Source of the DNA: Propionimicrobium sp. PCR01-08-3
Lineage (GTDB): Bacteria; Actinomycetota; Actinomycetes; Propionibacteriales; Propionibacteriaceae
Assembly: GCF_030286045.1 (NCBI RefSeq)
Contig: NZ_CP127390.1
Span: forward strand, 2,931,482 to 2,995,481
DNA length: 64,000 bases
Direction of reading: 5' to 3'
Shown here piece after piece: positions 2,136-33,322 of the stretch; positions within the stretch are counted from its first letter, which is position 1; each line of letters starts with the position of its first letter. The notes below the pieces were generated by a model, which worked only from the letters and a program-made list of their open reading frames with translations, had not been told where the DNA came from and searched no databases. A program made the translations under genes and the position numbers.

Positions 2136-2873
2136 TCAGTCCAGCACCTTCAGGGCACCAACCACCAGGTCGCGGGCGTAGGGGGCGGCGATCTTGCGCA
2201 GAAAGGCCGGGAAGTCGACGTTCGCATCCTGATCGGCGCGATCTGAGATTGTCCTGGCTACGGCAAATGGAATGCCTGCCATGGCGCACACTTGAGCGAC
2301 CGCGGCGCCTTCCATCTCGACCGCCAGGGCGTCCGGAAGTTCGCTGCGCAACTTCGCCGATCCTTCGGCAGTGTTCACGAAGACATCTCCGGAGATGATC
2401 AATCCCGGACGCACGGTGGGGTCGTCCAACCCGAGTGAAGCGAGCGCTGCCCTGTGACCGGCAACCGCGCCCACGGCGGCACCGGCGAGCGCCGCCGTCA
2501 GGTAGGCGTCCGCGGGGATGCGCGTCTTGCCGACCACCGGGGAAACCCAGCGATCCCACAGCGGACGCGCGTCCAGGTCGTGCTGCAGAAGCTCAGTGGC
2601 GATCACGATGTCGCCGGGGTTCACGTCTTTTCCGATACCCCCGGCGGTGCCGACATGAATCATGCCGGAGGCCCGCTCGGCGAGCACAGCTGCGGTAGTG
2701 GCTGCGGCAACCTTACCGACCCCCGACAGCGTGAGCAGCACGTCACGGCCGGCCAGCCGGGCGTGCAGCAGCGTGACGCCTGCCACCTTTTCGGAGCAGA
2801 TCTCGCCCTCGTCACGTGCGGCGGCCACGATCGCCGACAGCTCATCCTCCAACGCTGCGATGATCGCGAGCAT
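2136..2873 (-). CDS. mtnN: 5'-methylthioadenosine/S-adenosylhomocysteine nucleosidase
   Basis: This is a purine-nucleoside-phosphorylase-fold enzyme that hydrolyses methylthioadenosine and S-adenosylhomocysteine to adenine plus the thioribose product. It works in the cytoplasm in SAM salvage and AI-2 precursor formation. The 245-residue length fits the family (about 230-245). Diagnostic elements are the N-terminal IIAALEDEL, the substrate-site segment GTAGGI near residue 77, IISGDVFV in the middle, VEMEGAAVAQV (the Glu that contacts the ribose), and ISDRAD near the C-terminus, whose Asp is the catalytic acid. A purine-rich stretch precedes the ATG. The convergent spacing to its neighbours suggests a single-gene unit. 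Confidence 0.93.
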   Translation of the reverse strand: MLAIIAALEDELSAIVAAARDEGEICSEKVAGVTLLHARLAGRDVLLTLSGVGKVAAATTAAVLAERASGMIHVGTAGGIGKDVNPGDIVIATELLQHDLDARPLWDRWVSPVVGKTRIPADAYLTAALAGAAVGAVAGHRAALASLGLDDPTVRPGLIISGDVFVNTAEGSAKLRSELPDALAVEMEGAAVAQVCAMAGIPFAVARTISDRADQDANVDFPAFLRKIAAPYARDLVVGALKVLD

Positions 2874-2919
2874 CTCTCCAGCCTCCTCGGGTCAATTGGT
2901 ACATATCATCCCACGGCGA

Positions 2920-3312
2920 CTATGTGAGCAATCGCCAGCCGAGCTTCGCCGATGCTCGGCGATCGAAGGTCACGACCTCATCGCATCCGGCCCGTGCGGC
3001 AACGGACGCGATCAACGCGTCCGGAAAGTCCGCGCCCTTTCCGGCAGCCGCAATCGCCGATGCAACGGACGACGGATCTTCAGCACGGATCTCATCAGCC
3101 ATGGACAGCTCAGACAGCTGAGCCACGACGTCCAACCTCGCAAAACCATAGGCACGGGTCAGCACCCAATAGACCTCGGCCCAGACAACTGTCGCAATGA
3201 ATCCCGGTCTGATTTCGGTTAGCCGTTCGAAAACAGCCGTCGCACGTTGAGCCTGGGCGGCATCATCTTGGGTGAGAAAGCGCACGACGATATTGGTGTC
3301 AAGCCCTATCAC
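2920..3312 (-). CDS. vapC: VapC-family PIN-domain ribonuclease toxin
   Basis: This 130-residue PIN-domain protein matches the VapC toxin length. The acidic metal-binding set is complete: D5 in GLDTN, E46 in VWAEVYWV, D95/D98 in GADFPDALIA and D117 in VTFDRR. It should therefore be an active Mg2+-dependent endoribonuclease. Known VapCs cleave tRNA anticodon loops or rRNA; the target here cannot be read from sequence. It starts inside the stop of the upstream AbrB-type antitoxin (4-bp overlap), the usual translationally coupled toxin-antitoxin order. Confidence 0.93.
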   Translation of the reverse strand: MIGLDTNIVVRFLTQDDAAQAQRATAVFERLTEIRPGFIATVVWAEVYWVLTRAYGFARLDVVAQLSELSMADEIRAEDPSSVASAIAAAGKGADFPDALIASVAARAGCDEVVTFDRRASAKLGWRLLT

Positions 3313-3554
3313 TTCTGCGAATCCTCAGCCCCGCTGGCAATCGCCTGGTCCATCTCCTCGAGGGATTTCGCAGGTCCGGAATAACGAAGGGCACCTGCTA
3401 ACTTCTTGACCGGACGATGCTCCCGGCGCAGCTCGTATCCACCATCGGCAGTCTTCACAAATTGGACGCGGCTACCGGGTTTCAGATCGAGATCTTCGCG
3501 CACGCTTTTCGGGATTGTTATCTGACCTTTGCTGGTTATCGTTCCTGTCGCCAT
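3309..3554 (-). CDS. vapB: AbrB/MazE-type antitoxin of the VapBC pair
   Basis: The predicted 81-residue protein has an N-terminal swapped-hairpin DNA-binding domain (TGTITSKGQITIPKSVRE...GSRVQF, residues 3-32), as in AbrB/SpoVT antitoxins. Its flexible acidic C-terminus (SLEEMDQAIASGAED) is expected to wrap the PIN toxin. A strong ribosome site (AAGGAGG) sits 5-6 nt upstream of the ATG and lies inside a perfect inverted repeat. The stop overlaps the vapC start by 4 bp. The protein probably represses its own operon. Confidence 0.92.
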   Translation of the reverse strand: MATGTITSKGQITIPKSVREDLDLKPGSRVQFVKTADGGYELRREHRPVKKLAGALRYSGPAKSLEEMDQAIASGAEDSQK

Positions 3555-3558
3555 AATT

Positions 3559-3582
3559 CCTCCTTACTCAAGGGTAAGGAGG
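3559..3582. promoter_or_regulatory. 9-bp inverted repeat over the vapB ribosome site
   Basis: CCTCCTTAC at 3559-3567 and GTAAGGAGG at 3574-3582 are perfect inverted repeats separated by 6 bases. The arm nearest vapB is the ribosome-binding site itself when read on the minus strand. The element is either the AbrB-type autoregulatory operator, an RNA hairpin that hides the ribosome site, or both. Confidence 0.6.
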
Positions 3583-3779
3583 TCTCTATCGCATCGCAAG
3601 GTGGCCTTCTGACGGACCGCTCAACAGCCGATGCTGCCCGATATCCGCACTGGGCTCTGATGCAGTTCGTGATCTACGCAGTGATCGGCATCTTTGTGTT
3701 GCGGCGGGTCCCGGATTCGCGTCCGCGATAACAGCGATCGCCCTCTGTACCCTGAGGGGGTAGCCGAGCACAGGAGCAG

Positions 3780-4655
3780 ATGATGCCCGATATCCGCTTG
3801 ATCGCGTCCGATATGGACCACACGTTGCTTACCGAAGCCAGCGAACTGCCGCCGGACTTCCATAGTTACGTCGAGCGGTTGAATCAGGCTGGGATCGTTT
3901 TCGTCGCGGCAAGCGGGCGCCCCTACTTCACGCTGAAGTCGATGTTCCCCAAAGGCGGGCCGGGCATCGCCTACATCGGCGACAACGGCGGAACCGTCAC
4001 ATTTGACGGCAAGGTGCTTTTCGAGTCGTTGATGCCCACCACCGACTACCAGGCGATGATCGCCCTCACCCATGAGCAGACTCATGGCGTCCCGATCATC
4101 TGCGGCATCGAGACTGCCTATGTCGAATCCCACTTCCGGACGCACGAACAGTTTCTGCGCACCTTCTACTCCGAACTCACCTTCGTCGACGACCTCGGCA
4201 CGGTCAGCGCCAAAGCCGACAAGTTCACCGTCTATTGTCCCGATGCGGACGCGATCGAGCGCGCCGACCGCGTCTTTCGCCCGGCTTACGAGGGCGACTT
4301 CGCCGTCACCATCGGCGGCAGAGTCTGGGTCGACATCATGAATCCAGGTGTATCAAAGGGTCACGGACTACGGGTTTTGGCGTCCCATCTCGGTTTGACG
4401 CCCGAGCAGATGATGGCCTTCGGCGACACGTTCAACGACATCGAGATGCTGGACGAGGCCTACTACTCCTACGCAGTCGCCAACGCCGAGCAGGAGGTGC
4501 GCGACCGGGCACGCTTCCAGGCCGCATCGAACGACGAGTTCGGGGTGGTCGCGGTCATTCAAAAGGTCCTCGCCGAGGTCGCGCGGGGCGATTCCCTCGC
4601 GGCAGACGGGTCCCGCAGCCAAAGCGGCGCGGAGAGCCAGACAGCAGGGGCCTGA
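3780..4655 (+). CDS. Cof-type HAD-superfamily phosphatase
   Basis: The predicted protein has 291 residues and HAD motif I as IASDMDHTLL (nucleophile D11, acid/base D13), motif II as VAASGRPYF, a Lys in the VSKGHGLRVL region and motif IV as FGDTFNDIEML. The cap between motifs II and III and the length fit the type IIB (Cof/YidA) subfamily of sugar-phosphate or cofactor phosphatases. The substrate is not predictable. An AGGAG ribosome site lies 3-8 nt before tandem ATG codons at 3780 and 3783, so either start is possible. The last 30 residues are low-complexity polar and overlap the decayed toxin on the other strand. Confidence 0.88.
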   Translation: MMPDIRLIASDMDHTLLTEASELPPDFHSYVERLNQAGIVFVAASGRPYFTLKSMFPKGGPGIAYIGDNGGTVTFDGKVLFESLMPTTDYQAMIALTHEQTHGVPIICGIETAYVESHFRTHEQFLRTFYSELTFVDDLGTVSAKADKFTVYCPDADAIERADRVFRPAYEGDFAVTIGGRVWVDIMNPGVSKGHGLRVLASHLGLTPEQMMAFGDTFNDIEMLDEAYYSYAVANAEQEVRDRARFQAASNDEFGVVAVIQKVLAEVARGDSLAADGSRSQSGAESQTAGA

Positions 4656-9195: not shown

Positions 9196-9966
9196 TCAGG
9201 CAGCACGACCCAAGAGGACGACTCGGTCGAGGGCCGAGGTGAGCGGCTCGATCACCTCGATGCCGGTTCGTGCGCGCACCTGATCGGCAAGGCCGGACAT
9301 CGCCCCGCAACCGAGTAGCACCACCCTCACGCCAAGATCGGCGAACTGGTTCACCTCGCCGAGCAGCGACTCCAAGGCCACGGTGCTGCCCGACTCATAA
9401 TCGCGCCGGACAGCACCCCGGACGACCGCCTTGTCGATGGTCAACCCGTAACCGACGACCTGCTGCAGCTTGTCATCGGCGATATCGGCGCTGACGCAGA
9501 GCACACCCCAGAGTTGCTGCTCCGTCGCTGCGCCTGGTCCGCAAATCGACGTCTGATAGCTCGCATGAGAGTCCTTGTCCGGCACGCGGCTATCAGATGA
9601 TCCCGGCCGGAGATCACTCACAGCGGTGCACCGGGAGCTACCCGCCGCCTCGGTTATGGACGCCCAGCCCATCCCGACAACCGGACAGCCATCCGGGGTG
9701 ATCAACCAACCGGCCGGCAACCCCGGATCTCCGTGGCAAGCAACCACCATGGCATCGAATCCCTCGACCCCGAGCCGGTCACCTCGGCGCAAGATCTCAC
9801 CGGCAACCCGGTCGTTGTCAGCCTGGGTGATGAGCAATTCCGGAGCTTCTGGCAGGTACTCGGTCACCACCTGATGGCCCGCGACCCGCGCCCAGTTCTC
9901 GGCCACCCGAGCCAGCGCCCGGGTGGTCGCCGCGGACGAGTTCGGGTTCAGAACCAGGATTCTCAC
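9196..9966 (-). CDS. hyuE: hydantoin / Asp-Glu racemase family protein
   Basis: The predicted protein has 256 residues and the Asp/Glu racemase fold. Both catalytic cysteines are present: C77 in VVACHGDPGL and C220 in VVLLGCGAMSG. The N-terminus ILVLNPNSSAATT is diagnostic for the hydantoin racemase subgroup, which interconverts D- and L-5-substituted hydantoins. The GTG at 9966 is chosen because it overlaps the stop of the carbamoylase gene as GTGA; a longer in-frame start at 9993 would overlap more. It is the last gene of the ammonia-lyase / carbamoylase / racemase unit and would let both hydantoin enantiomers be used. Confidence 0.88.
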   Translation of the reverse strand: MRILVLNPNSSAATTRALARVAENWARVAGHQVVTEYLPEAPELLITQADNDRVAGEILRRGDRLGVEGFDAMVVACHGDPGLPAGWLITPDGCPVVGMGWASITEAAGSSRCTAVSDLRPGSSDSRVPDKDSHASYQTSICGPGAATEQQLWGVLCVSADIADDKLQQVVGYGLTIDKAVVRGAVRRDYESGSTVALESLLGEVNQFADLGVRVVLLGCGAMSGLADQVRARTGIEVIEPLTSALDRVVLLGRAA

Positions 9967-11240
9967 TCTTGATTCGCGAACGTCACCGCGCACTGCAGCA
10001 GCACATTGATGCCGTCGGCACAGGCCTTGGGCGTCGAGTACTCGCGCGGGTTGTGACTGATGCCGTCGTACCTGCCCGGCACGAACACCATGCCTGTCGG
10101 GCAGATCGCCGCCATCTCACCGGCATCGTGCCCGGCTCCCGACATGATCCGCCGATTGCTCAACCCGAACCGGTTCGCGACCTGCTCGACCTCGTCCATC
10201 ACCTCGTCGTAAAACTCCACCGGCGGGGTGTGCGCGGTGATCTCGGACGAGATGGTCACCCCGCACCGCTCCTCGACCTCCCAACAGTAGGCCAGCAGGT
10301 CGGCGCTGGCACGCTGGATGGCTTCCTCGTCGGGATTGCGGAAATCGACGGTGATGATTGCCTCGCTGGCCACGATGTTGACCAGATTGGGCGAGGTGTC
10401 GAAGCGTCCGACGTTGGCCAGCAGAGCCCCGTAGTCGCCCGACTTGACCATCTCGTCCAACTTCACGGTCACCAGGGACGCCGCCAGCACCGCCGAGTGC
10501 CGCAGCGCGTCCGGGGTGGTTCCCGCGTGGGCGGCGCGGCCGCGAATGGTCAGCCGATGCCACAAAATGGCCTGCACTCCGGTGACCACACCGATCTCAT
10601 ACCCTCCTGCTTCCAAGATCGGCCCCTGTTCGATGTGACATTCCACGTAGTGGGCGGGCGGTGCCACCGGAACGGGCCGATCACCGACCAGGCCATGCCG
10701 GTCCAATTCGGATCCCACTGAGATGCCCTGCGCATCGGTGAGCGCCCGGGCGTCCACCTCGCTGATTCGTCCGGCTGCGACCGCGCTGCCGAGCATGTCG
10801 GTGCCGAACCGGCAGCCCTCCTCCTCGGTCCAGATCGCCAACTCGATCGGACGCAGGGTCTCGACCTGGTGATCGTTGAGCGTCCGGATCACCTCGAGGC
10901 CACCCAGAACTCCGAGGCAGCCGTCAAATCTGCCGGCGGTGGCGACCGAATCGATGTGCGAGCCGATGACCACCGGCGCCAGCGTGTTATCCAGACCCGG
11001 ACGACGGGCCCGCACGTTACCGATCCGATCGAAGCTGACCTCGAGTCCGGCCTTCTCGAACCAGGGCACCACCAGATGTCGTCCGGCGATGTCCTCGTCC
11101 GACAACGCCAGCCGCCGTACCCCCATTAGCTCGGTCTCGGCGTCGAAGTAAGCGCCGACCTCACCTAGTTCGGTGAGAGAGGCCCACAGCCGCTCTTGGT
11201 CGATGCGCACGGTCTCGGTTCGCTGCTGTTCGATGGTCAT
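9963..11240 (-). CDS. hyuC: N-carbamoyl-L-amino-acid hydrolase (M20 hydantoinase/carbamoylase family)
   Basis: The predicted 425-residue cytoplasmic amidohydrolase belongs to the M20 HyuC/AllC/beta-ureidopropionase family. Zn ligands are visible as H95 in GSHIDSV, D106 in GRFDGCLG, E140-E141 in TEEEGCRF, a His in ECHIEQGP and a late His in SGAGHDAGEMA. RGRAAHAGTTP marks the lid/dimerisation domain. It should cleave carbamoyl-amino acids, releasing CO2, ammonia and an L-amino acid, the step after hydantoin ring opening. It is separated by 3 bp from the lyase gene and overlaps the racemase gene, so the three are co-translated. An allantoate or ureidopropionate substrate cannot be excluded. Confidence 0.92.
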   Translation of the reverse strand: MTIEQQRTETVRIDQERLWASLTELGEVGAYFDAETELMGVRRLALSDEDIAGRHLVVPWFEKAGLEVSFDRIGNVRARRPGLDNTLAPVVIGSHIDSVATAGRFDGCLGVLGGLEVIRTLNDHQVETLRPIELAIWTEEEGCRFGTDMLGSAVAAGRISEVDARALTDAQGISVGSELDRHGLVGDRPVPVAPPAHYVECHIEQGPILEAGGYEIGVVTGVQAILWHRLTIRGRAAHAGTTPDALRHSAVLAASLVTVKLDEMVKSGDYGALLANVGRFDTSPNLVNIVASEAIITVDFRNPDEEAIQRASADLLAYCWEVEERCGVTISSEITAHTPPVEFYDEVMDEVEQVANRFGLSNRRIMSGAGHDAGEMAAICPTGMVFVPGRYDGISHNPREYSTPKACADGINVLLQCAVTFANQE

Positions 11241-11243
11241 CGC

Positions 11244-12440
11244 TCATTCCTCCATCCCGCCGACAACTCGGCGATAGTTCCGGGCATCGGTCGGTCCTTC
11301 GGTGAGGAAGACGAGCACTGTGTCACTGCTTGTCAGGCCGAGGTCTCCGCGGTTGCCCAGCAACCCTGCCAGGCCGGCGGCACCTGATTCACCGGCGGCG
11401 ATACCGTCTTCAGCGAGCAGCCGCATCGCCTGTTCGGCGGATGCGTCGTCGATCACCGAGAAGGCGTCGAAGCCGGTACTGATATCCGGCCAGGCGATAT
11501 CCGAAGGGGTGCCGCAGTTCAGACCGGCCATCGCCGAACGCTGTTCACCGGGGAGCGAGATGATCCGCCCGACGGCCACGGATGCCGTCACACAGGCCGC
11601 ATCCAGTGGTTCGACCCCCACCATCAATCGGCCCGGACGATGGGCGAAGCCTCGGGCCACCGCCGCCGCGAATCCACCGACTCCGATCTGAGCGGCCACC
11701 ACGTCGGGTTCGGGCAGCGCCCCGGCAGCAATGAGATCGGTCACCTCGCCGACAACGGTCGCGTAGCCGTCGATCACATCTTGGGGTGCCCGGGTGTATT
11801 CGGGCCACGACGTATCCGAGATCACCGCGTGTGTATCGTCGGCCATCGCGGCGGCCATCCGGACGGTGTCGTCGTAGCCGAATTCGGTGACCCGGACTTC
11901 AGCCCCCTCAGCTGCGATGGCGTCGATCCGGTCCTGAGCCGTCCCGGCCGGCATCAAGACGACCGCGGGCAGCCCGAGCAAAGATGCCATGTGGGCGACG
12001 GCGCGTCCGTGATTGCCGTCGGTCGGCGCCACCAATGTCAACCCGGGGTGATCGACCGCTGCCCGCACCAGATCATCGAACCTCAACCCCGCGGCATCTC
12101 CGAGCCTCCAGCGCTCGGCCAGCTCCCTGCAGACCGCCCAGGCCGCGCCCAAGATCTTGAACGACGGCAGCCCGAGCCGGTCGGATTCGTCCTTGACCAG
12201 CACCTTCGCCACCCCGAGGGCCTCGGCCGTTGCCAGGGCTTCCCGTACCGGCGTCGCCGCGAAGCCGGGTAGCGACGCATGAAAGCCGCGGCACACGGCA
12301 TCCGGCAGACCGGCCGCGGTGCGATCTGCCAGAGGATTGCGCAGCACATAATTGGCCCCCGGAGCCGCTATCTGCCGGCTTTCAGCTAGGGCGCGCGCGG
12401 ATGGGTCGTGGCCAACTGCTTCATCAGCAATGGGAAGCAT
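11244..12440 (-). CDS. dpaL: diaminopropionate ammonia-lyase
   Basis: This 398-residue fold-type II PLP enzyme carries the PLP lysine K95 in LPSFKILGA. Further features are KDESDRLG upstream of it, the Asn of TDGNHGRAVAH, AAQIGVGGFA, and the C-terminal LTEGPTDARNYRR. This combination is specific for the YgeX/DpaL group, which degrades 2,3-diaminopropionate to pyruvate and ammonia. In Escherichia coli ygeX sits beside ygeZ (hyuA, a hydantoinase) and ygeY, so its presence with a hydantoinase here repeats a known association linked to purine-derived nitrogen use. It is the first gene of the minus-strand operon, opposite the GntR regulator. Confidence 0.9.
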   Translation of the reverse strand: MLPIADEAVGHDPSARALAESRQIAAPGANYVLRNPLADRTAAGLPDAVCRGFHASLPGFAATPVREALATAEALGVAKVLVKDESDRLGLPSFKILGAAWAVCRELAERWRLGDAAGLRFDDLVRAAVDHPGLTLVAPTDGNHGRAVAHMASLLGLPAVVLMPAGTAQDRIDAIAAEGAEVRVTEFGYDDTVRMAAAMADDTHAVISDTSWPEYTRAPQDVIDGYATVVGEVTDLIAAGALPEPDVVAAQIGVGGFAAAVARGFAHRPGRLMVGVEPLDAACVTASVAVGRIISLPGEQRSAMAGLNCGTPSDIAWPDISTGFDAFSVIDDASAEQAMRLLAEDGIAAGESGAAGLAGLLGNRGDLGLTSSDTVLVFLTEGPTDARNYRRVVGGMEE

Positions 12441-12690
12441 GCGCGGTCTCCTTTGTAGGACAACTAATAGCAGACTGATTATGGCGGTTTATGAGAGGAA
12501 TGACTAGGGTGGTGATGTCGGGCTGACAAGCGTGGTCGAGGTGTTCGGTGACTGCTTCGCAACGTACGTGTGGTGCAGACGATGTCTGCAGCATCTGATC
12601 GGCAGCATCGTCAATCGGACGCCCACACCCGACCGGGACACCCGCAACAACCCGGGCAGTACGGCTCGCGGTCCTGATATAAGGAGAACG
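12441..12690. promoter_or_regulatory. divergent dpaL / gntR control region with a 17-bp palindrome
   Basis: This 250-bp region separates the oppositely transcribed lyase operon and GntR gene. It contains the perfect palindrome TGCAGAC-GAT-GTCTGCA at 12574-12590 (7-bp arms). A palindrome of this size in the intergenic region next to a GntR gene is the expected form of its operator. Confidence 0.6.
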
Positions 12691-13455
12691 ATGGCCGCTC
12701 GTGGAACCAACGCCGCCAGGATCCGGCAACGAATGCCGCTGCAAACCGAGATCCGCAATGCGATCCTCGACGACCTGATTCTTTCCGGTGAGATTTCGGC
12801 AGGCGCCAAGCTTCCGTCGGAGGCCGAGTTGTGCGAGACCTACGCCGCGTCCCGGGTGACGGTGCGCTCGGCCCTGCAGTCGCTCGCTGAGCAGGGATTC
12901 ATCCAGACCCGCCGGGGCTCGGGCTCCATCGTGCTGCCCCGGGCGAAGACCATCGCCTCGCACCTGACCAGGCTCGTCTCGTTCGACAGCTATGCCGAGC
13001 AGGCCGGCGAGGCCTTCGACACCGTCGATCTGGTCATCGAGGATTGCCCGGACGACGACCCGGCACGCGAATCGTTCGCCTCCGACCAGCAGGAACACCT
13101 CACCAGGCTCTCCCGGTCGAAGGCCCGCGGCGGGCAGCGGGTCGCCTGGATCATCGACTATGTTCCCGCTCAGGTGCTTACCCGAGACGAGCTGTCCGAA
13201 GAGTTCGGACGCACCGGTTCGGTGCTCGACATCCTCATCGGACGCGACCTTGCCCAGTTCGCCGACTCCACACTGGAGCCGGTCATCATTGATGAGCAGC
13301 TCGCCGGCCACATTGATGCGGCGATCGGCAGTCCGACCCTGCAGATGAGCGAGATGACGTGTAGCCGCGCGGGCACCCTCATCGACCGCAGCGAATCGTG
13401 GCTGTTGCCCGGTGCCTTTGAGTTCTCGTTCCGCAGAAACCGGGATTCGTTCTGA
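12691..13455 (+). CDS. GntR-family (HutC-type) transcriptional regulator
   Basis: The predicted protein has 254 residues. The winged helix-turn-helix spans residues 10-80: PLQTEIRNAILDDLI, then LPSEAELCETYAASRVTVRSAL and a GSGSIV wing. It is followed by a UTRA-like effector domain. The ATG at 12691 is chosen over a longer in-frame ATG because AAGGAG lies 4-9 nt upstream. The gene is divergent from the ammonia-lyase operon and convergent with the hydantoinase/ECF operon, so it is the likely regulator of both, with an amino-acid or hydantoin derivative as effector (inference). Confidence 0.9.
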   Translation: MAARGTNAARIRQRMPLQTEIRNAILDDLILSGEISAGAKLPSEAELCETYAASRVTVRSALQSLAEQGFIQTRRGSGSIVLPRAKTIASHLTRLVSFDSYAEQAGEAFDTVDLVIEDCPDDDPARESFASDQQEHLTRLSRSKARGGQRVAWIIDYVPAQVLTRDELSEEFGRTGSVLDILIGRDLAQFADSTLEPVIIDEQLAGHIDAAIGSPTLQMSEMTCSRAGTLIDRSESWLLPGAFEFSFRRNRDSF

Positions 13456-13628
13456 ACTGAACCCGCCGATGTGCGCCGCAGCGGGCGGCGCGGCACAAGC
13501 CTCCGAGCGAACGAAATGCGACAACACCACTGGAACTTCGTGCCCGCCTTCACGTCTCGCGAATAGGAAGACCATGGCTTCCGGACCGATCGTCGACCCT
13601 GCCACGGCCTGGGCCAGAGATCGGGCGC

Positions 13629-15029
13629 TCACCGGATCCTCCCATCGCACGGGCCGCAGCCGATGAACTGGCCCGACTGGGAGCCCACCAGTGCGCCATC
13701 ACGCACCGCCTGCGAACCTCGGACGAAGACGTCGCGCACGCGACCAGTAATCGTCCAGTCCTCGTAGGGCGTGTAGTCGACGTTCTCGTCGAGATCGCTC
13801 TGGTGCACGACACGGATGCCGCGAGGATCATAGATCACCACGTCGGCATCCGAACCGGGTGCAAGAATCCCCTTGCGCGGGTAAACCCCGAAGTAGCGGG
13901 CCGCATTCGTGGCGTTCAATTCGACGTAACGTTCCAGCGAGATGCGTCCGGTCAGCACCCCGTAGGTGTAGAGCAACTCCATGCGCAACTGGATGCCCGG
14001 GGCGCCGTTGGGGATCGTCCGGAAGTCGTCGCCGCCGGCATCCTTTTGGCCGTGCACGTTGAAGGCGCAATGGTCGGTGCCGATGAATTGCACGGCACCG
14101 GTCGCCACCGCGTCCCACAGCTTGTCCTGATCCGAGACTTCTCGCAGCGGTGGGCTGATCACAAAGCCGGAAATCTCGTTCAGCTCACTGCCTTCGGCCG
14201 AGCCGTACGAGCCAGAGTCCAGCAACAAGTATTGCGGGCAGGTCTCCGCTCGCATCGCCACGCCGCGCCCGTTTGCACGCAGCACCTCGGTCAGCCCGGC
14301 CGCGCTGCTCAAGTGCACCGCATAGCAGGGCACATGGCCCGCCAGTTCGCTGATCGCCGCCAGTCGGCTGATGGCCTCGCGCTCGACCTCCACCGGGTGA
14401 GTGTGCTGGTGGTAGAAGGCACCCGTCTGCCCGGACGCCACCCTGGACTTGGTCAGCTCGTCGATCAGCCGCCCGTTCTCGGCGTGGAACCCGATCGTGC
14501 CACCAAAACTCGTGGTGGCCTGCAGGGCCTGGAAGATCTCGTCGTCCTCGACCATCATCGCCGGGCGGTATGCCATATACATCTTGAACGAGGTGACGCC
14601 CTGGGCGGCGATTGCCCGCATCTCATCGGCCCGGCCTTCCGGCCATTCCAGCATCGCCATGTGAAAGGCGTAGTCACACCAGGCCTTTCCGGCGGCTTTG
14701 GCGTTCCAGTTGGCCAGCCCGGTGGCCAGCGTCTCGCCCTTCTGCGCGGTCGCGAAATCCATCACGAGGGTGGTGCCACCGAGTACTGCGGCCCTGGTGC
14801 CGGTGTTGAAATCATCCACGGTGGTGGTGCCCTGAGTGGCCAGGTCGAGATGGGTGTGGGTGTCGATGCCACCGGGAAACACCAGGCATCCGGTGGCGTC
14901 GATCACCTGGTCGTCCGGGCTCTCGACGACCGAGCCCAGCGCGGTGATCTGCTCGCCGTCGATCCTCAGATCGGTGACGGACGAGCCATACGGCCCAACC
15001 ACGGTTCCGCTACGAATGATGGTGCTCAC
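13629..15029 (-). CDS. dihydropyrimidinase / hydantoinase
   Basis: The predicted 466-residue amidohydrolase starts at a GTG that overlaps the upstream stop (GTGA). The dinuclear metal site is complete: H58-x-H60 in GIDTHTHLDL, the carboxylated lysine K149 in VTSFKMYMAYR, H182 in GFHAENG, H239 in YAVHLSSAAG and D319 in GTDHCAFN. This set defines D-hydantoinase/dihydropyrimidinase, which opens cyclic ureides to N-carbamoyl amino acids. It is the last gene of the ECF-transporter operon, and its product would feed the carbamoylase at 9963-11240. Whether the natural substrate is a hydantoin, a dihydropyrimidine or a purine-derived ureide is not visible. Confidence 0.92.
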   Translation of the reverse strand: MSTIIRSGTVVGPYGSSVTDLRIDGEQITALGSVVESPDDQVIDATGCLVFPGGIDTHTHLDLATQGTTTVDDFNTGTRAAVLGGTTLVMDFATAQKGETLATGLANWNAKAAGKAWCDYAFHMAMLEWPEGRADEMRAIAAQGVTSFKMYMAYRPAMMVEDDEIFQALQATTSFGGTIGFHAENGRLIDELTKSRVASGQTGAFYHQHTHPVEVEREAISRLAAISELAGHVPCYAVHLSSAAGLTEVLRANGRGVAMRAETCPQYLLLDSGSYGSAEGSELNEISGFVISPPLREVSDQDKLWDAVATGAVQFIGTDHCAFNVHGQKDAGGDDFRTIPNGAPGIQLRMELLYTYGVLTGRISLERYVELNATNAARYFGVYPRKGILAPGSDADVVIYDPRGIRVVHQSDLDENVDYTPYEDWTITGRVRDVFVRGSQAVRDGALVGSQSGQFIGCGPCDGRIR

Positions 15030-16612
15030 AGTGTGTCTCCCTTTCCGATGCGGACGACGTGACCCGGCCTGGCTCCGGTCGGGGTGGCGCCGGTCCAGAC
15101 CTTTTGGCCCGCAACCCAGACCCCGTAGACGCCGGTGGTGTAACTGCACGGGTTCTCGAAGGAGGCAGTGTCGACGAACTCCTGCGGGTTCAACAGCACC
15201 AGATCCGCGCGCCGGCCTGGTGCGATGACCCCACGATCGGCCAGGCCCAGCATGGCTGCCGGACGAGCGGTCATCCGCTCGATGACCTCGGTCACCGGGG
15301 CGAGATTGCCGCGAATCGCGAAGCGTCCGAGGAACCGCCCGGTCGACCCATAGAGCCGGGGATGCGGTGACGGGTTGAACACGCCATCGCTGCCCAGCAT
15401 CGACCCCGACCTGCGGTAGATCTCGTGGACGACCCGTTCGCTCGAGTAGTGATCGATCATGGCGGCGTCGAGATCGGTGCGAGCGCAGATCTCGATGACG
15501 GCGGTGGCCGGGTCGCAGTGCAGGATGTCTGCGGCCTGCGCCACGGTGCATCCGACGACCTCGTCCAGGCCCCTGGCCTGGGTGATGGTGACCTGCTCCG
15601 GGCCGCACGAGCCGAACAGGTTCTCCCAGCCGGGCAAGCCATGGTTCATGTCAGCAGCGAGCTTTTTGCGTACGGCCCGATCGTTGACCCTCGCAAGCGC
15701 CGCCGAGGGTCCACCGTCCATCGCCCAGGGCGGCAGCAGCGCGGTGAGCAGCGTGGAGCCTGCCCCGTAGGGATATTGGTCGACGCTCAGATCGATCCTG
15801 GAAGCGGCCGTCTCCAAGAGACCCAGCAGTTCGTCCAACAAGGTCTCGTTGCCGATCAGCTTGAGGTGCGAGATATGCAGCCGGGCGCCCGTGCCGCGGC
15901 AGGCATCGATGAACTCGCTCATCGCCGCCAGTGATTCACCTGCCTCGTTGCGCACGTGCGGAATCAGCGCGACGCCGTGCTTGGCGGCAATTTGGGCGAG
16001 CGCCCGGAGTTCGCGTCCGTGCCCATACATTCCCGGTGCGTAGATCATGCCGAAGCTGATCGCCGCGCCGCCTGCCGAGAGGCAGACATCGGCCAGCTCC
16101 TGCATCGCCCGAAGCTCTCCGACGGTGGCGTCCCGGTCATCATCTCCCATCACGACCTGGCGCAGCGCGCTGTGCGGCACACAACTAACAAGGTCGGTGG
16201 CGGGCACCGTCGCGTCCAGCACACTGAGGTACTCGTCGAATGTTCGCCAGCTCCAGGTTCCCAGGGTGCTGGGTTCGAGCCCCGCCAGATAGTCGCGCCG
16301 ATCGTTCAGATGGGCGTCGTCCACCGGCGCCGGGCCGAGCCCGTCCGGGCAGATCAGCTGGGTGGTAAAGCCCTGCGACACCTTGGCCGCCATCTGGGGT
16401 TCGTCGAAGCTGCGCAATGCAGAATGGGCATGCAAATCGATGAATCCCGGGGTCAGCCAGCATCCGGCGCCAAGCACGGTCGCGGCGTCCGCCACGGTCT
16501 CGCCGGGCGACACCAGACCGTCGATGCGTCCATCTGCCACCACGACATCGGCGGGCACGAATCCTGCCGGGGTGTGAACCTTCGCGCCACGAATAACAAG
16601 ATCAGCCGACAT
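15026..16612 (-). CDS. N-acyl-D-amino-acid deacylase (D-aminoacylase family)
   Basis: The predicted protein has 528 residues and an amidohydrolase core. H61 and H63 in GFIDLHAHSAL start the metal site. The central segment has IPHVRNEAGES and HISHLKLIGN, followed by VDQYPYGAGSTLL, all typical of the D-aminoacylase family. GSDGVFN supplies the late Asp. The family hydrolyses N-acyl-D-amino acids to the D-amino acid and a carboxylate. The start at 16612 is chosen because it lies 1 base after the ATPase stop (TGAGATG); a longer in-frame ATG overlaps the ATPase. It is translationally coupled both upstream and to the hydantoinase downstream, which ties D-amino-acid derivatives to this operon. Confidence 0.88.
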   Translation of the reverse strand: MSADLVIRGAKVHTPAGFVPADVVVADGRIDGLVSPGETVADAATVLGAGCWLTPGFIDLHAHSALRSFDEPQMAAKVSQGFTTQLICPDGLGPAPVDDAHLNDRRDYLAGLEPSTLGTWSWRTFDEYLSVLDATVPATDLVSCVPHSALRQVVMGDDDRDATVGELRAMQELADVCLSAGGAAISFGMIYAPGMYGHGRELRALAQIAAKHGVALIPHVRNEAGESLAAMSEFIDACRGTGARLHISHLKLIGNETLLDELLGLLETAASRIDLSVDQYPYGAGSTLLTALLPPWAMDGGPSAALARVNDRAVRKKLAADMNHGLPGWENLFGSCGPEQVTITQARGLDEVVGCTVAQAADILHCDPATAVIEICARTDLDAAMIDHYSSERVVHEIYRRSGSMLGSDGVFNPSPHPRLYGSTGRFLGRFAIRGNLAPVTEVIERMTARPAAMLGLADRGVIAPGRRADLVLLNPQEFVDTASFENPCSYTTGVYGVWVAGQKVWTGATPTGARPGHVVRIGKGDTL

Positions 16613-16613
16613 C

Positions 16614-17456
16614 TCAGCGGTTCGCCCCCACCGATTCTCCTTGCCATTCGGCGACCAGCTCGTCCGGAAACAGCGCCCGACCACTGAAGCGGGCACCGGG
16701 CAACCGCTGCCCTAGCCGGGTGACCAACGGTGGCAGCAGATCGGCTTCGGCAATCACGTCGGTGGCCGACAGCACATCGCGGGTCGGCCCGTCCAAGATG
16801 ATCTTGCCGTGGGTCATCGCGATGACGCGGTCGGTGTATTCGGCAACGATGTCCATGTCATGGGTGATCACGATGATGGTGTGGCCGTTGGCATTCAGGT
16901 CGCGCAGAAACTCCATCACCTCGCGTGACTGCCGGTAGTCCTGGCCGGTGGTCGGCTCGTCGACGATGATCACCTTCGGGCGGAGGGACAGGATCGAGGC
17001 GATCGCGATGCGCTGCCGAATACCCTTGGTCTGAAAGAACGGGTGTTCGTCGAACAGGTCTTCCGAGATGCCTGCGATCTGCGCTGCTTCCCGCACTCGT
17101 CGGTCGACCTCATCGGCAGATAGCTTGAGGTTTTTCGGCGCATACGCGATCTCGTCGTAGATCTTGTTGTTGAACAGCTGATGGTCGGGATTTTGAAAGA
17201 CATAACCGATCGAGCTGATCAGCTTGGACGAGCGCAGGTTCGCGTCCACCGTGATCTGGTCGACCACGACCTTTCCCGAAGTCGCCTTGAGGATACCGTT
17301 CAGGCATTTCGACAGCGTGGTCTTGCCAGAGCCGTTCGTGCCGATGAGGCCGACCATCTCTTGGGGCCGGATCTCCAGCGAGATGCCCTCCAGCGCCTGG
17401 GTGCCGTCCGGATAGCGAAAACCCAGCCGGTCGACGCTGATGATCGGTTCACTCAT
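16614..17456 (-). CDS. ECF transporter energy-coupling ATPase (EcfA), degenerate signature
   Basis: This 280-residue ABC ATPase has Walker A GTNGSGKTT (residues 39-47), the Q-loop GYVFQNPDHQLF typical of EcfA subunits, and Walker B VIIVDEPTTGQD. The ABC signature reads TKGIRQR where LSGGQ(K/R)Q is usual, so the Ser that contacts the gamma-phosphate of the partner is not at its normal place. Asymmetric EcfA pairs often have one degenerate site; here the partner at 17516-18388 has a perfect signature. It lies next to the deacylase gene (1-bp gap). Confidence 0.9.
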   Translation of the reverse strand: MSEPIISVDRLGFRYPDGTQALEGISLEIRPQEMVGLIGTNGSGKTTLSKCLNGILKATSGKVVVDQITVDANLRSSKLISSIGYVFQNPDHQLFNNKIYDEIAYAPKNLKLSADEVDRRVREAAQIAGISEDLFDEHPFFQTKGIRQRIAIASILSLRPKVIIVDEPTTGQDYRQSREVMEFLRDLNANGHTIIVITHDMDIVAEYTDRVIAMTHGKIILDGPTRDVLSATDVIAEADLLPPLVTRLGQRLPGARFSGRALFPDELVAEWQGESVGANR

Positions 17457-17515
17457 GAAATCTCCAAAGTCACGTTTAAGAAGATGGATGGTTGGTCAAG
17501 CTAGACTCGGCCGGC

Positions 17516-18388
17516 TCATACGCCTGCCAGCATGCCCCCGCACACTCGCGCGACATCTGCGAATCGCACTGGGCGATGTGCGCTCTGGTCTTCCGGCGTG
17601 ATTTCACCGGACGGCTCGATCTGGTCAAAGAAGGTGACCGTGCCGGGCACTCGGATCGAGTCACGGGCCGAGGCAGGAATCTGCTGAAAAAACGTGCCGA
17701 GTGGCGCGTCGACCGCGATGGTGCCATGTTCCATCAGGATCATCCGGTCGCATACCTCGACGAGTTGCTCGAGGTTGTGTTCGATGACCACCACGGTCAA
17801 GTCGAGGCTGCGTTTCACCTCTGCCAGCAGCGAGAAGACGCCCTTCTTCGAGACCGGGTCGAGCATCGAGGTCGGTTCGTCCAAGATGATGATCTTGGGA
17901 CGCATAGCCAGCACGCCGGCGATCGCCACCCGCTGCTTTTGCCCGCCGGAGAGTTCGAACGGCGACTTTTGCAGCAGCCGTTCCAGCCCTGCCAGTTCGC
18001 AGGCCCAATGCAGGCGCTCCTGGATGACTTCGATCGGTGTGCCGATGTTTTCCAGGCCGAAGGTGATCTCTTCTTCGACGCTCATCGTGGTGAACTGGGC
18101 GTCCGGGTCGGAGAACACCAGGCCGACCAGGCTCGCGCATTCGGCGGCGTCGTAGTCGACGATCGGACGACCGAACAGGTCGACGGTGCCGAGATAGATG
18201 CCGTTGAAGCTTTGCGGGATGATGCCTTTCATCGCCGCGGCCAGCGTGGTCTTGCCGGCCTCGTTGGGCCCGACGATGCCGACGAATTCGCCCTGGTCGA
18301 GGGTGAGGTTAACCCCATCGAGGGCCTTATGTTCCGATTCGCCGTAGCTCCAGGTGAGATCCTTGATCTCTATCGCCGGCTGGTTCAC
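17516..18388 (-). CDS. ECF transporter energy-coupling ATPase (EcfA), canonical
   Basis: The predicted protein has 290 residues from a GTG that overlaps the EcfT stop (GTGA), with GGGAGG upstream. It has Walker A GPNEAGKTT (40-48), a Q-loop in GLVFSDPDAQF, the full signature ELSGGQKQR, Walker B IIILDEPTSMLDP and the H-loop VIEHNLE. The much longer open frame reaching 19357 is antisense-like read-through of the EcfT gene and is rejected. With the second ATPase it would form the heterodimeric motor of a four-subunit ECF importer. Confidence 0.92.
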   Translation of the reverse strand: MNQPAIEIKDLTWSYGESEHKALDGVNLTLDQGEFVGIVGPNEAGKTTLAAAMKGIIPQSFNGIYLGTVDLFGRPIVDYDAAECASLVGLVFSDPDAQFTTMSVEEEITFGLENIGTPIEVIQERLHWACELAGLERLLQKSPFELSGGQKQRVAIAGVLAMRPKIIILDEPTSMLDPVSKKGVFSLLAEVKRSLDLTVVVIEHNLEQLVEVCDRMILMEHGTIAVDAPLGTFFQQIPASARDSIRVPGTVTFFDQIEPSGEITPEDQSAHRPVRFADVARVCGGMLAGV

Positions 18389-19311
18389 GACAATCCTCCC
18401 GGAATGAGCAGGGCGAACACGGAGTCGCCGAGGCTGAGCAGCGGCGTAGCGAAGGCGATGACGGCCGCACCCAGCAAGAGTGCGACCAGCCCGATCGCGA
18501 GCGTCCAGTCGAATGGCTTCATCCGGAACTGAGTGCGCAGCCAATCGGGCCTGGACCGGCCGTTGACCTTGTTGGAGATGCGCACCCCTTTGGCGAACAG
18601 TCCCATCGAGATGTCTTCGCTGCGCCTGATCGACAGGGAGAACAACGGAATCAGGTTCATCGCGAAATGCTTGATCTTCCCGGTGAAGCTGAGATCCCGG
18701 GTGTCGAGGCCGCGAGCGATCTCGGCCTCCTTGATCACCTGGTAGTCCTCCATGAAGATGCCGACCGAACGCAATGCGAGTCCGACGAAATAGGAGACCA
18801 CGAACGGGACACGCAACGTCCGCATGCCGACCAGAATGTCCGACTCGCGGTTGGTGCTGAAGTAGAAGATGGACGCCAGCACCAACGCGGCGATTCGGCA
18901 ATAGGTGCAAAATGCCCAGAGCAGCGACTGTGCCCAGACCGTCACCGGACCGAACTGCCAGCTGGATCCCGAGACGTCTTCGCGGGGGAAGAAGATATAG
19001 GTCAGGTTGAGGATCACGAAGACTGTCACGAGCATCGGCAGGAACATCTTGAGCCTGCCCATCTTGACGTTTGCCACCGAGAACATCGCCAAGGTGAGGC
19101 CGATCACGACCAGATTGAACTCCGGGCGCTCGATGAACAACGGAACCAGCGAACTGACCAGGTAGATGACCAACCGGGTCGCCGGATGCAGCCGGTACAT
19201 CGGCGACTCCGATGGAACATAGCCCATGATGGTTTTCTGCATGGCCGGCTTGGTGCTGGCCGGTGTGACGACCAGTTTGGCCGGCGGACTGCTGACGACA
19301 ACCGAAGTCAT
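18385..19311 (-). CDS. ecfT: ECF transporter transmembrane component T
   Basis: The predicted protein has 308 residues with four to five membrane segments between residues 50 and 180 and another at the C-terminus. The coupling helices carry the EcfT motifs EAEIARGLD (canonical E-A-x-x-A-R-G) and a second, degenerate one in RRSEDISMGLFAKG. It bridges the two ATPases and the substrate-specific S component. The ATG at 19311 has GGGAG about 8 nt upstream; longer in-frame starts read into the S-component gene's 3' flank. All operon neighbours except the S component (120 bp upstream) overlap it or follow directly. Confidence 0.9.
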   Translation of the reverse strand: MTSVVVSSPPAKLVVTPASTKPAMQKTIMGYVPSESPMYRLHPATRLVIYLVSSLVPLFIERPEFNLVVIGLTLAMFSVANVKMGRLKMFLPMLVTVFVILNLTYIFFPREDVSGSSWQFGPVTVWAQSLLWAFCTYCRIAALVLASIFYFSTNRESDILVGMRTLRVPFVVSYFVGLALRSVGIFMEDYQVIKEAEIARGLDTRDLSFTGKIKHFAMNLIPLFSLSIRRSEDISMGLFAKGVRISNKVNGRSRPDWLRTQFRMKPFDWTLAIGLVALLLGAAVIAFATPLLSLGDSVFALLIPGGLS

Positions 19312-19433
19312 GATCTGCTCCCTGATTTTGGAAGGGTGTTTGAGATGCCCGGGGCATGCGGGCATATGTCCGCTTGAGATCTGGGTTTCCCGGCGCTGGC
19401 GACCCCGGGAGACCCAGACGGCTAGCGTTCCGA

Positions 19434-20093
19434 TCAAGCCCAGATGCCTTTGACGAAGGCCTTGGACTTCAACACGATCGGCGAGATGAACTTCAGCATG
19501 ACGGCGCCCAGCACCCAGGAGGCGATGGAGTTGCCGAGAAACCAGCCGATGAAGGTGACCAAGAAGGCACCCGGGGTGACCAGGTTGAACATGAGCAGCA
19601 CGACGCAGCCCCATCCGGCACCGATCAGGTTGGAGACGATGATGCCGAACACGGTGAAGACCATCCAGTCGCGTCCTGATTTCAGGCGCGGATCGGCCTT
19701 GAACGCACGGAAGGCGATGCCGCCGACGATGGCCTGGGCCAGGTTGCCGGGCAGGTACGCCAGCGATACCGGCAGCGGGGCGGAGCCTGCGATCGCATTG
19801 GAGATGATCGGGAAGACGGCCCCGGCGATGCCGCCCCAGCCGCCGTACCAGATGCCGCCGACGGTCTGAATGGCCTGGCCGGGCCAGAATGCGGTGATGT
19901 ATCCGAGCGGGATCGCCAGGCTGCCGAAGGTTCCGACGACGATACCGATGCCGGTGAACAGGGCCGCCATCACGAAGTGGTTGAGGCCGGATTTACGAAC
20001 CTCTCCCGGCCGGATGGCCCAGACGCTCTCGCGCCTCTTGGTGTCGGTGGCGGTGGCTTCGGGGGTGGCCTTTGATGCGGTGGTGGAGGTCAT
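19434..20093 (-). CDS. ECF transporter substrate-specificity (S) component
   Basis: The predicted protein has 219 residues: a polar 35-residue N-terminus, then six hydrophobic segments. The second helix region has PLGYITAFWPGQAIQTVGGIWYGGWGGIAGAVFPIISN, an arrangement seen in MtsT/HmpT/ThiW-like S components of unknown substrate. The gene heads an operon ending in a D-aminoacylase and a hydantoinase, so the substrate is most simply a cyclic ureide, an N-acyl amino acid or a related nitrogen compound. That assignment is inference; vitamins are the usual ECF cargo. Confidence 0.82.
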   Translation of the reverse strand: MTSTTASKATPEATATDTKRRESVWAIRPGEVRKSGLNHFVMAALFTGIGIVVGTFGSLAIPLGYITAFWPGQAIQTVGGIWYGGWGGIAGAVFPIISNAIAGSAPLPVSLAYLPGNLAQAIVGGIAFRAFKADPRLKSGRDWMVFTVFGIIVSNLIGAGWGCVVLLMFNLVTPGAFLVTFIGWFLGNSIASWVLGAVMLKFISPIVLKSKAFVKGIWA

Positions 20094-20184
20094 GTCACAC
20101 CTTTCTCGCTAGTTTCTCCGAGCCATCTCGGAACTTGTATGAGAACTAACAAGATAGAATCACGTGTCCGTGCGACAGGGGTTA

Positions 20185-27629: not shown

Positions 27630-28511
27630 TCAGCAGTTCTGCTCCAGGTACTTGTGGACGACGGCCAGGTCGTCGTCCCCCAAGCCGGCTTCGGTGAGGT
27701 TCTGGTAGATCTTCAAGGCGGCCGAGCTGATCGGCAGCGTCCGGCCGGACGAGGCCGCCTCGCCGAGCGCAATTGTGAGATCTTTCACCATGAATTTCGC
27801 GGCACCGGTATTCGAGTAGTCGCGATTCTCGACCTTCTCGTGCTTCGCATTCAGTACCGCACTGCCGCCCCAGCCTTTGGCGAGCATCGCATACATCAGC
27901 GCGACGTCGACGCCGGCTCCCTCGGCCAGCAGCGCCGCCTCTGACAGCGCCGCCATGGTGACCCCGACGATCATCTGGTTGCAGGCCTTCACCACCTCGC
28001 CGGCCCCCAGCGGACCGCACAGCACCGGTGTGCCGCAAGCCTTCAGCACCTCGATCGCGGCCTGCGCGGGAGCTTCATCGCCACCCACCATGATCGACAG
28101 GGTGCCCGCCTGCGCGCCCGCCTCGCCACCGGAAACCGGGGCGTCCACCACCTGCAGCAAGCCATCGGTCTGCTTGCCGACACGGGTGGCCAGTTCTCGG
28201 ACATCGCCCGGCGCCACCGTCGAGCTGACGACCAGGACGGTCGGTGAGGCGATGCCGGCGAGCAGGCCGTCGGGACCCTCCAGTAACGGAATCAGCTGGG
28301 TGAGGTCTTGCAGCATGTCGATGATGACGTCGCAGGTTTCGCCGATCGCCCGAGGGGTCGGCTCGAATGCCGCACCCCGCGCAACCAGTGGCTCAGCCGA
28401 TTGCGGACGCCTGGCCCACACCGTGAGCCGGTGCCCGGCCTCGATCAATTGAAGTCCCATCGGGGCGCCCATCTTGCCCGGGCCCAGCAGCGCAACGCGA
28501 GTAGTCGTCAT
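27630..28511 (-). CDS. 3-hydroxyisobutyrate dehydrogenase-family reductase (GlxR-like)
   Basis: The predicted 293-residue beta-hydroxyacid dehydrogenase has Rossmann motif GPGKMGAPMG at the N-terminus and the substrate motif DAPVSGGEAGAQAGTLSIMVGG. The catalytic lysine lies in GAGEVVKACNQMI, and the C-terminal helix block is present. The family reduces tartronate semialdehyde to glycerate or oxidises 3-hydroxyisobutyrate. Beside KduD and a sugar-acid dehydrogenase, a tartronate-semialdehyde or related aldonate role is likely. The ATG at 28511 is preferred; another ATG two codons earlier (28517) is possible. It is divergent from the SDR gene. Confidence 0.88.
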   Translation of the reverse strand: MTTTRVALLGPGKMGAPMGLQLIEAGHRLTVWARRPQSAEPLVARGAAFEPTPRAIGETCDVIIDMLQDLTQLIPLLEGPDGLLAGIASPTVLVVSSTVAPGDVRELATRVGKQTDGLLQVVDAPVSGGEAGAQAGTLSIMVGGDEAPAQAAIEVLKACGTPVLCGPLGAGEVVKACNQMIVGVTMAALSEAALLAEGAGVDVALMYAMLAKGWGGSAVLNAKHEKVENRDYSNTGAAKFMVKDLTIALGEAASSGRTLPISSAALKIYQNLTEAGLGDDDLAVVHKYLEQNC

Positions 28512-28591
28512 GCCCATAGAATATGGGACCAGCGACCTCATGGACGATGCGAATGGACCGGCGAGCCATGGGGATTCGCGGAGGAGAAGAG

Positions 28592-30126: not shown

Positions 30127-30168
30127 CGCGGCGGCTTCACTCTCGTGATCGTCCGGCGCGATGGACGA

Positions 30169-31188: not shown

Positions 31189-31218
31189 CGCCGTCCTCCT
31201 TGATTGGGGTTAGATCGA

Positions 31219-31276
31219 AAGCCCGGATCCACCGGGGGAACGCGGTGTGCGTGTCCTCATTGATGGATCCGGGCTT
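31219..31276. terminator. 13-bp inverted repeat between TRAP and dehydrogenase genes
   Basis: AAGCCCGGATCCA (31219-31231) and TGGATCCGGGCTT (31264-31276) are perfect inverted repeats with a 32-base spacer. They lie between the DctM stop and the dehydrogenase start on the minus strand. The element may be a partial terminator or an mRNA-stability element. Confidence 0.5.
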
Positions 31277-31290
31277 ATCACAGGGCCAGG

Positions 31291-32607: not shown

Positions 32608-32609
32608 AA

Positions 32610-33143: not shown

Positions 33144-33242
33144 GCCGTGAGCCTTTTTGATTGTCGGTTACTTTCGAAGACTGCCCGCAGGCGACCGAAT
33201 CAGATCCGTCACTGAATCGGGTCCGGAATCTTCACTTGTGAG

Positions 33243-33281
33243 CCGCGGGGCGGGGCGATTCGGCCCTGCCCGGCCCCGCGG
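33243..33281. terminator. GC-rich intercistronic hairpin between dctP and dctQ
   Basis: CCGCGGGGC (33243-33251) and GCCCCGCGG (33273-33281) form a perfect stem, with further GGGGC/GCCC pairing inside. The position after a binding-protein gene and before its permease genes fits an element that makes binding protein exceed permease. Confidence 0.55.
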
Positions 33282-33322
33282 AACACGTTATTTATTTCCC
33301 ATATTTCGGCGGGAAATTTGAC

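Follow-up and report, generated by a model that had tools for sequence, protein, structure and literature searches.

Gene organisation

Within a window of 64,000 nucleotides from the 3.29 Mb genome of Propionimicrobium sp. PCR01-08-3 (contig NZ_CP127390.1) lies an island, at positions 9196-20093, where the genes for an energy-coupling factor (ECF) importer adjoin those for a hydantoinase, a D-aminoacylase homologue (DAA), a carbamoylase, a racemase, a diaminopropionate ammonia-lyase (DAL) and a GntR regulator. The original prediction, made from the letters of the stretch, had named all of these, the regulator lying between the operons, and each is an open reading frame where it was placed. ECF transporters consist of S, T, A and A′ components and are known for the uptake of vitamins, nickel and cobalt, queuosine precursors and heme. 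The features of the island are:

9196-9993, minus strand: Asp/Glu/hydantoin racemase family protein (PF01177, E 5e-23; no NCBIfam match)
9963-11240, minus strand: M20 hydantoinase/carbamoylase-family amidase, proposed 3-ureido hydrolase (TIGR01879, 369 bits, cut-off 204)
11244-12440, minus strand: DAL, YgeX-like (PRK08206 equivalog, 304.2 bits, cut-off 276)
12453-12467, minus strand: candidate GntR operator before the DAL operon, TTAGTTGTCCTACAA, with a perfect core TTGTCCTACAA
12532-13455, plus strand: GntR/UTRA regulator (GntR and UTRA Pfam matches)
13629-15029, minus strand: D-hydantoinase/dihydropyrimidinase, HyuA-like (TIGR02033, 523 bits, cut-off 393)
15026-16612, minus strand: DAA, a D-aminoacylase-like amidohydrolase, proposed 2-ureido hydrolase (Pfam Amidohydro_3)
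16614-17456, minus strand: EcfA ATPase with an unusual signature (TIGR04521, 246 bits, below the cut-off of 330)
17516-18388, minus strand: EcfA′ ATPase with a canonical LSGGQ signature (TIGR04520, 228 bits, below the cut-off of 315)
18385-19311, minus strand: EcfT, transmembrane component of the CbiQ family (PF02361, E 3.3e-22)
19434-20093, minus strand: EcfS, S component, 219 amino acids, MASE1-related (Pfam MASE1, 33.1 bits, gathering score 29.8)
20135-20149, minus strand: candidate GntR operator before the ECF operon, TTAGTTCTCATACAA, its core one mismatch off TTGTCMTACAA

Except for the regulator gene, which is on the plus strand, the open reading frames are on the minus strand and make up two operons. 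Read 5′ to 3′, the first operon (20093 to 13629) runs S, T, A′, A, DAA, hydantoinase and the second (12440 to 9196) DAL, M20 carbamoylase, racemase. The GntR/UTRA gene points away from the DAL operon and towards the ECF operon. The translational coupling first proposed for the importer and its enzymes holds for T/A′ (4-nt overlap), A/DAA (1-nt gap) and DAA/hydantoinase (4-nt overlap) but does not extend to S-T and A′-A, where gaps of 122 nt and 59 nt represent ordinary same-strand spacing. DAL and the carbamoylase, in the other operon, are 3 nt apart.

Pfam backs the family name of every gene except S, the label of which rests on gene place and size. An ECF-type T component and two ATPases are present, the former matching CbiQ and the latter having TIGR04520 and TIGR04521 as their best families. 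Curated NCBIfam cut-offs are passed by the hydantoinase, carbamoylase and DAL and missed by both ATPases, T, DAA and GntR.

Conservation of the importer with the enzymes

The distribution of the island was assessed in genome samples that were drawn evenly and are not complete. A close S homologue is present in six of the 197 genomes sampled from the family Propionibacteriaceae, the window's own included, and G096, a genome from the same genus as the host, carries the S gene. S matches were obtained in 8 of 293 genomes of the order and 10 of 396 of the phylum, those beyond the close set being weak with E 4e-7 or worse; across the 396 genomes of the phylum sample, the window aside, there are weak matches only and most fall in long frames. 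An S homologue of 57% identity is encoded in a Bacillota metagenome-assembled genome (MAG; genome G759, locus L028).

In each of the five other family loci (L020-L024) the S-T-A′-A genes adjoin DAA, hydantoinase, DAL, carbamoylase and GntR. Two of these, L022 and L024, belong to another genus and display a changed gene order, with identities to the window proteins of 38-40% for the hydantoinase, 54-55% for DAA and 78-79% for S. Genes of the racemase family occur in all six Propionibacteriaceae loci, assigned by Pfam for the window, L022 and L024 and by similarity for L020, L021 and L023. The Bacillota locus reads DAL, FCD-type GntR, carbon-nitrogen (CN) hydrolase, S, T, A′, A, hydantoinase (33%) and DAA (44%). 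The hydantoinase occurs in divergent forms, its identity to the window copy across the ECF loci being 73-86%, 38-40% or 33%. In L024, positions 2684-4328, Pfam identifies genes for a SnoaL-like protein and a 2-oxoglutarate/Fe(II) oxygenase between hydantoinase and racemase, possibly an extra upstream step.

Hydantoinase, DAA, DAL and a GntR-family gene are thus kept in 7/7 ECF loci (the window, L020-L024 and L028) across two phyla, a count over loci that have a close S homologue and so sampled from the S side. Since the enzymes adjoin S in six genomes and in the Bacillota MAG despite rearranged gene order, the association of importer and enzymes exceeds chance. A lack of such co-conservation was one of two outcomes that the original prediction had named as refuting it.

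A candidate shared operator and an exchanged transporter

Relatives of the GntR regulator align only from residue 51-58 onward, and because of this the true start is probably near 12691. Allowing up to two mismatches, TTAGTTNTCNTACAA has two matches in 64 kb, one before each operon, where 0.08 would be expected. Its core palindrome TTGTCNTACAA (TTGTCMTACAA) is found with at most one mismatch before both operons in 7/7 GntR/UTRA loci, that is the window, L020-L024 and L131, the last from a genome of the same class; both domains were confirmed in the other six. Each of L020-L024 and L131 has exactly two core sites, one before each operon. The window has these two sites and a further one-mismatch core match at 53807, with about 1.15 expected per 64 kb from 20 mononucleotide shuffles. 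The Bacillota locus, with its FCD-type regulator, has no exact core match, and a single one-mismatch match at 9959 near the S gene is taken for chance.

Locus L131 encodes DAA (54% identity), GntR (47%), DAL (53%) and carbamoylase (65%), while S, T, A, hydantoinase and racemase are all unmatched in its 19.9-kb stretch. A sodium:solute symporter (SSF) sits between the operator-bearing genes. With its regulon retained and its transporter exchanged, L131 makes the strongest case for a role of the ECF genes in the pathway, although that case rests on one locus. L131 also encodes an extra M20 enzyme, which passes the YgeY model PRK13004 (330.8, cut-off 321) and misses TIGR03526 (211.6, cut-off 321.5). 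In L028 a CN hydrolase resembling N-carbamoylputrescine amidase (228 bits, cut-off 410) is present where the M20 carbamoylase is unmatched. By homology the 3-ureido step would appear open to replacement, being assigned to the M20 carbamoylase in the window, to an added YgeY in L131 and to the N-carbamoylputrescine-amidase-like enzyme in L028. Upstream of the symporter-type cluster a gene at L131:4391-5356 looks, by eye, like a class A beta-lactamase. A DAA profile matched one genome out of 171 in the family to which genome G414 belongs and 2 of 246 in the class, and gave no new locus. DAA relatives on plasmids number 40 records, each below 60% identity.

The S component

MASE1 is the sole Pfam match of the window S protein in a search extended to E 10, and exceeds the gathering score in the S proteins of the window, L022 and L024. 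A profile comparison of S with eight MASE1-like domains using hhalign gave a probability of 95.5 and E 1.5e-8 over 139 columns; the domains had themselves been retrieved with S, therefore this comparison is not an independent test. The same program gave a probability of 95.1 against a distant 196-residue protein (L025:7618-8208) that adjoins T and A genes and matches MASE1, QueT and ECF_trnsprt, all below gathering. No PDB sequence was matched by a six-member S profile up to E 10, and an AlphaFold2 model of S built from three sequences has a pLDDT of 46, too poor for fold placement. ECF S components and MASE1 sensory domains (window 19434-20093; L025:7618-8208; L007-L019) appear to be related in sequence.

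The likeness to MASE1 (PF05231), a sensory domain of histidine kinases and diguanylate cyclases, is one of homology detectable in sequence, but S differs from the MASE1 receptors in being a stand-alone protein of 219 residues encoded next to EcfT and a pair of EcfA. That the S-component fold is linked to receptors is already in print (PMC11109136). The word MASE1 has no occurrence in the main text of that paper, nor, among the matches listed, in any open-licence PMC paper on S components and ECF transporters.

With known ECF transporters the island shares the four-component gene set in one operon. It differs in its catabolic gene set, in a MASE1-related S that is below the threshold of every vitamin S family and in one ATPase with a conserved, unusual signature. 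The signature of EcfA reads QTKGIRQR where the partner EcfA′ has LSGGQKQR at the same place. KGIRQR or KGMRQR occurs in EcfA of six of the seven ECF loci, that of the Bacillota MAG included, and the partner has GGQKQR. This conserved, non-canonical signature is possibly that of an asymmetric motor. In L021 EcfA was matched as two pieces in different frames near 10820, perhaps an assembly error.

Might the importer simply carry a vitamin, its place among the enzymes being due to chance or shared regulation? Abstracts describe ECF importers as micronutrient or vitamin importers, and the S protein of the Bacillota locus has a weak riboflavin-family match as its only Pfam match (E 0.016, below gathering). 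A vitamin-specific clade for S was the other outcome that the original prediction had set against itself; the window S matches no vitamin-specific S family in Pfam or NCBIfam up to E 10. Taken with the conservation over two phyla in rearranged gene order, and with the symporter that occupies the place of the importer in the L131 regulon, this renders vitamin import highly improbable.

The enzymes and the reductive urate pathway

A reductive pathway for uric acid was characterised in 2025 (PMC12507026). In its lower half 5-ureidomethyl-hydantoin (UMH) is converted by HyuA to 2,3-diureidopropionate (DUPA), by UacY or YgeW to albizziin, by YgeY to diaminopropionate and by YgeX to pyruvate. The E. 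coli yge/xdhD-ygfK-ssnA cluster and the uac variant of C. difficile are the degradation clusters concerned (PMC12507026). The original prediction was right to point to the E. coli yge cluster, and the correspondence extends beyond what it had seen, every enzyme of the island except the racemase having a counterpart in this lower half (PMC12507026). By homology, a hydantoinase, a 2-ureido hydrolase, a 3-ureido hydrolase and a diaminopropionate lyase are here together.

For comparison we used L119, the only one of 30 SsnA-centred loci read that has a DAA match above 60 bits. It is a UacY-type cluster with YgeX, YgeY, UacY, SsnA, a XanQ-like permease, a DHO_dh/4Fe-4S protein (UacX-like), HyuA and an XdhD-like protein. 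Identity to the L119 proteins is 47% for the window hydantoinase against HyuA and 34% for DAA against UacY. The likeness of the island to the reductive urate cluster lies in the HyuA-type hydantoinase, the D-aminoacylase homologue, the M20 hydrolase and the YgeX lyase. However, the island has an ECF importer where L119 has the permease, adds a racemase, and employs an M20 enzyme of another subfamily and a D-aminoacylase homologue of another clade. In addition, neither SsnA nor YgfK passes its cut-off in the Propionibacteriaceae genomes with the island, and no molybdoenzyme of the XDH type was found in them.

The last difference follows from searches of the seven cluster genomes for the upper half of the pathway, to which SsnA, YgfK or UacX, and XdhD belong. 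SsnA is over cut-off in none (weaker matches occur in four), as against one of 14 control genomes and 69 of 299 genomes of the Bacillota MAG's phylum; at a stricter E-value E. coli and one archaeon remain among the controls, one of them over cut-off. YgfK is likewise over cut-off in 0/7, with matches confined to positions 433-936 of 1012, and in one control genome. The XDH-type domain PF02738 is absent from the six Propionibacteriaceae genomes, a result that does not cover UacX-type (DHO_dh) dehydrogenases, which were not searched for in any cluster genome. With SsnA and YgfK below cut-off and the XDH domain absent, full urate degradation in the host was considered and rejected. Because these markers are missing, the Propionibacteriaceae probably import a substrate that is already ring-opened.

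DAA belongs, like UacY, to PF07969; UacY is a D-aminoacylase homologue reported to cleave the 2-ureido group (PMC12507026). A D-aminoacylase and an N-acyl-D-glutamate deacylase are among the best-scoring solved structures for DAA. Alignment with 1m7j places an Asp in DAA at the Cys of the D-aminoacylase GNCG motif, as in UacY. This Cys we take to be a zinc ligand. Of 60 aligned rows, Asp is found in 9/9 of the DAA clade (eight distinct genes) and 3/3 of UacY; the remaining 48 homologues comprise 35 with Cys, two with a gap and 11 with Asp.

The closest solved structures to DAL are diaminopropionate ammonia-lyases (4d9g, 5ygr), and PDB relatives of the M20 carbamoylase include an N-carbamoyl-beta-alanine amidohydrolase (8c46). 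The families found at the 3-ureido step act on ureido or N-acyl groups. Hydantoin breakdown of the ergothioneine type was considered and rejected, as scores for ErtD and ErtE (193 against 650 and 310 against 520 bits) are far under the NCBIfam equivalog cut-offs.

Substrate and proposed function

What, then, might be imported? We put at about even the chance that the island is a regulon, complete in itself, for scavenging and breaking down a ring-opened purine ureide, of which UMH, its isomer 5-ureido-dihydrouracil or DUPA are the most likely. The EcfS-T-A-A′ importer would take up the ureide at low concentration and the racemase would supply the D(R)-hydantoin. The D-hydantoinase would open this to DUPA, from which DAA, acting like UacY of C. 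difficile, would remove the 2-ureido group to give albizziin. The M20 carbamoylase would then remove the 3-ureido group, leaving 2,3-diaminopropionate for the ammonia-lyase to convert to pyruvate and ammonia. GntR, acting at TTGTCMTACAA, would keep both operons repressed until it binds an inducer. We infer the substrate, every reaction, transport and regulation from homology, gene context and the published pathway.

Stereochemistry can be accommodated. Questions left open for the urate pathway include its stereochemistry and which ureido group is cleaved first, and an R/D configuration has been proposed for the ureido intermediates (PMC12990295). The combination of a racemase with enzymes of D-hydantoinase and D-aminoacylase type fits that proposal.

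Several observations weigh against assignment to a purine ureide. The seven-locus count depends on S-side sampling. Asp-type residues also occur, as noted, in 11 of the 48 other DAA homologues, and in the tree the DAA and UacY clades are separate with support of 100/100 each, UacY being no nearer to the DAA clade than to Cys-type rows. A weakly supported branch (73/89) sets the rows with Cys or a gap apart from all others, therefore the Asp-type rows are not established as one clade. For these reasons the Asp of DAA is consistent with a ureido substrate and no proof of it. DAL reaches neither TIGR03528 (247.5, cut-off 532.25) nor TIGR01747 (238.5, cut-off 274), and the M20 carbamoylase belongs to the HyuC/allantoate type instead of being a YgeY. 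In the Bacillota locus the racemase, like the M20 carbamoylase, is unmatched, and the MAG has nine PF02738 matches, so an upper purine route is possible there. Separately, direct orthology of DAA with UacY was considered and is ruled out by the two clades.

An obvious alternative is classical hydantoin utilisation, in which N-acyl- or N-carbamoyl-D-amino acids and 5-substituted hydantoins in general would be the substrates and DAL would deal with free diaminopropionate or other D-amino acids. The island shares D-hydantoinase, carbamoylase and racemase with such systems and has a D-aminoacylase family member, and DAL is reportedly equally active on L and D diaminopropionate (PMC12507026). However, with DAL, a UacY-like enzyme and the ECF importer the island goes beyond the classical set, and the D-aminoacylase Cys is Asp in all eight distinct genes of the DAA clade. 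DAL, moreover, is present in 7/7 ECF loci and in L131, where hydantoinase and racemase are unmatched; diaminopropionate, not hydantoins generally, is therefore the common denominator. We regard classical utilisation as a minority possibility, somewhat unlikely. The description of the locus in the original prediction, a hydantoin / D-amino-acid derivative island, is similarly affected: of its two halves the D-amino-acid one, given the Asp that DAA has in common with UacY, is the weaker.

The substrates could also be other derivatives of diaminopropionate, such as plant albizziin or natural products that contain diaminopropionate, the hydantoinase then serving as a side branch for cyclised forms. 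Locus L131, with DAA, YgeY, carbamoylase and DAL and its hydantoinase unmatched, favours such a scheme, and albizziin is among the known amino acids of plants (PMC12990295). Retention of the hydantoinase in 7/7 ECF loci, though in divergent forms, argues the other way, and a D-type pathway is a poor fit for plant L-albizziin. We judge this explanation distinctly unlikely.

Returning to the purine ureide, a more specific form of the proposal, tentative and with the balance tilted somewhat against it, is that a dedicated ECF importer, its S component of a new class related to MASE1, picks up UMH or DUPA that reductive uricolytic neighbours release, feeding a stand-alone lower urate pathway.

Surroundings of the island

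The GC content of the island is 66.8, 65.2 and 61.9% in three 4-kb steps and that of the rest of the window 58.6-65.9%, therefore the island is not set apart by composition. No Rfam family (gathering scores) or tRNA gene was detected in the window. Elsewhere in it, TRAP transporter genes (DctM, DctP) lie near genes for alcohol- and hydroxyisobutyrate-type dehydrogenases (27630-34480), and genes with T2SSE and T2SSF domains resemble part of a Tad-type pilus cluster (43343-45711).

Biological significance

In the open-licence PMC literature we found nothing that joins the energy-coupling factor with hydantoinase and transporter or with D-aminoacylase, and nothing that joins diaminopropionate ammonia-lyase or ygeX with hydantoinase and uric acid. 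The passages that combine ECF transporters with allantoin, as far as these were examined, do not concern ureide import by an ECF system. Diureidopropionate and a transporter are mentioned together in at least two papers. ECF transporters have been studied as micronutrient importers and a tie to a catabolic regulon would widen their range and provide a new class of ligand. A stand-alone lower half with its own racemase makes a clean system in which to address the order of cleavage and stereochemistry. The sequence link between S and MASE1, in turn, offers a handle on possible ligands of MASE1 receptors.

On the purine-ureide proposal, an intermediate with an opened ring should leak from uricolytic bacteria and be harvested by other bacteria. 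Capture of UMH or DUPA from such neighbours, if true, would open a niche of cross-feeding on uric acid that is half degraded, and would bring ECF transport into carbon and nitrogen catabolism. The S component and MASE1 receptors would then bind related amino-acid- or ureide-like ligands.

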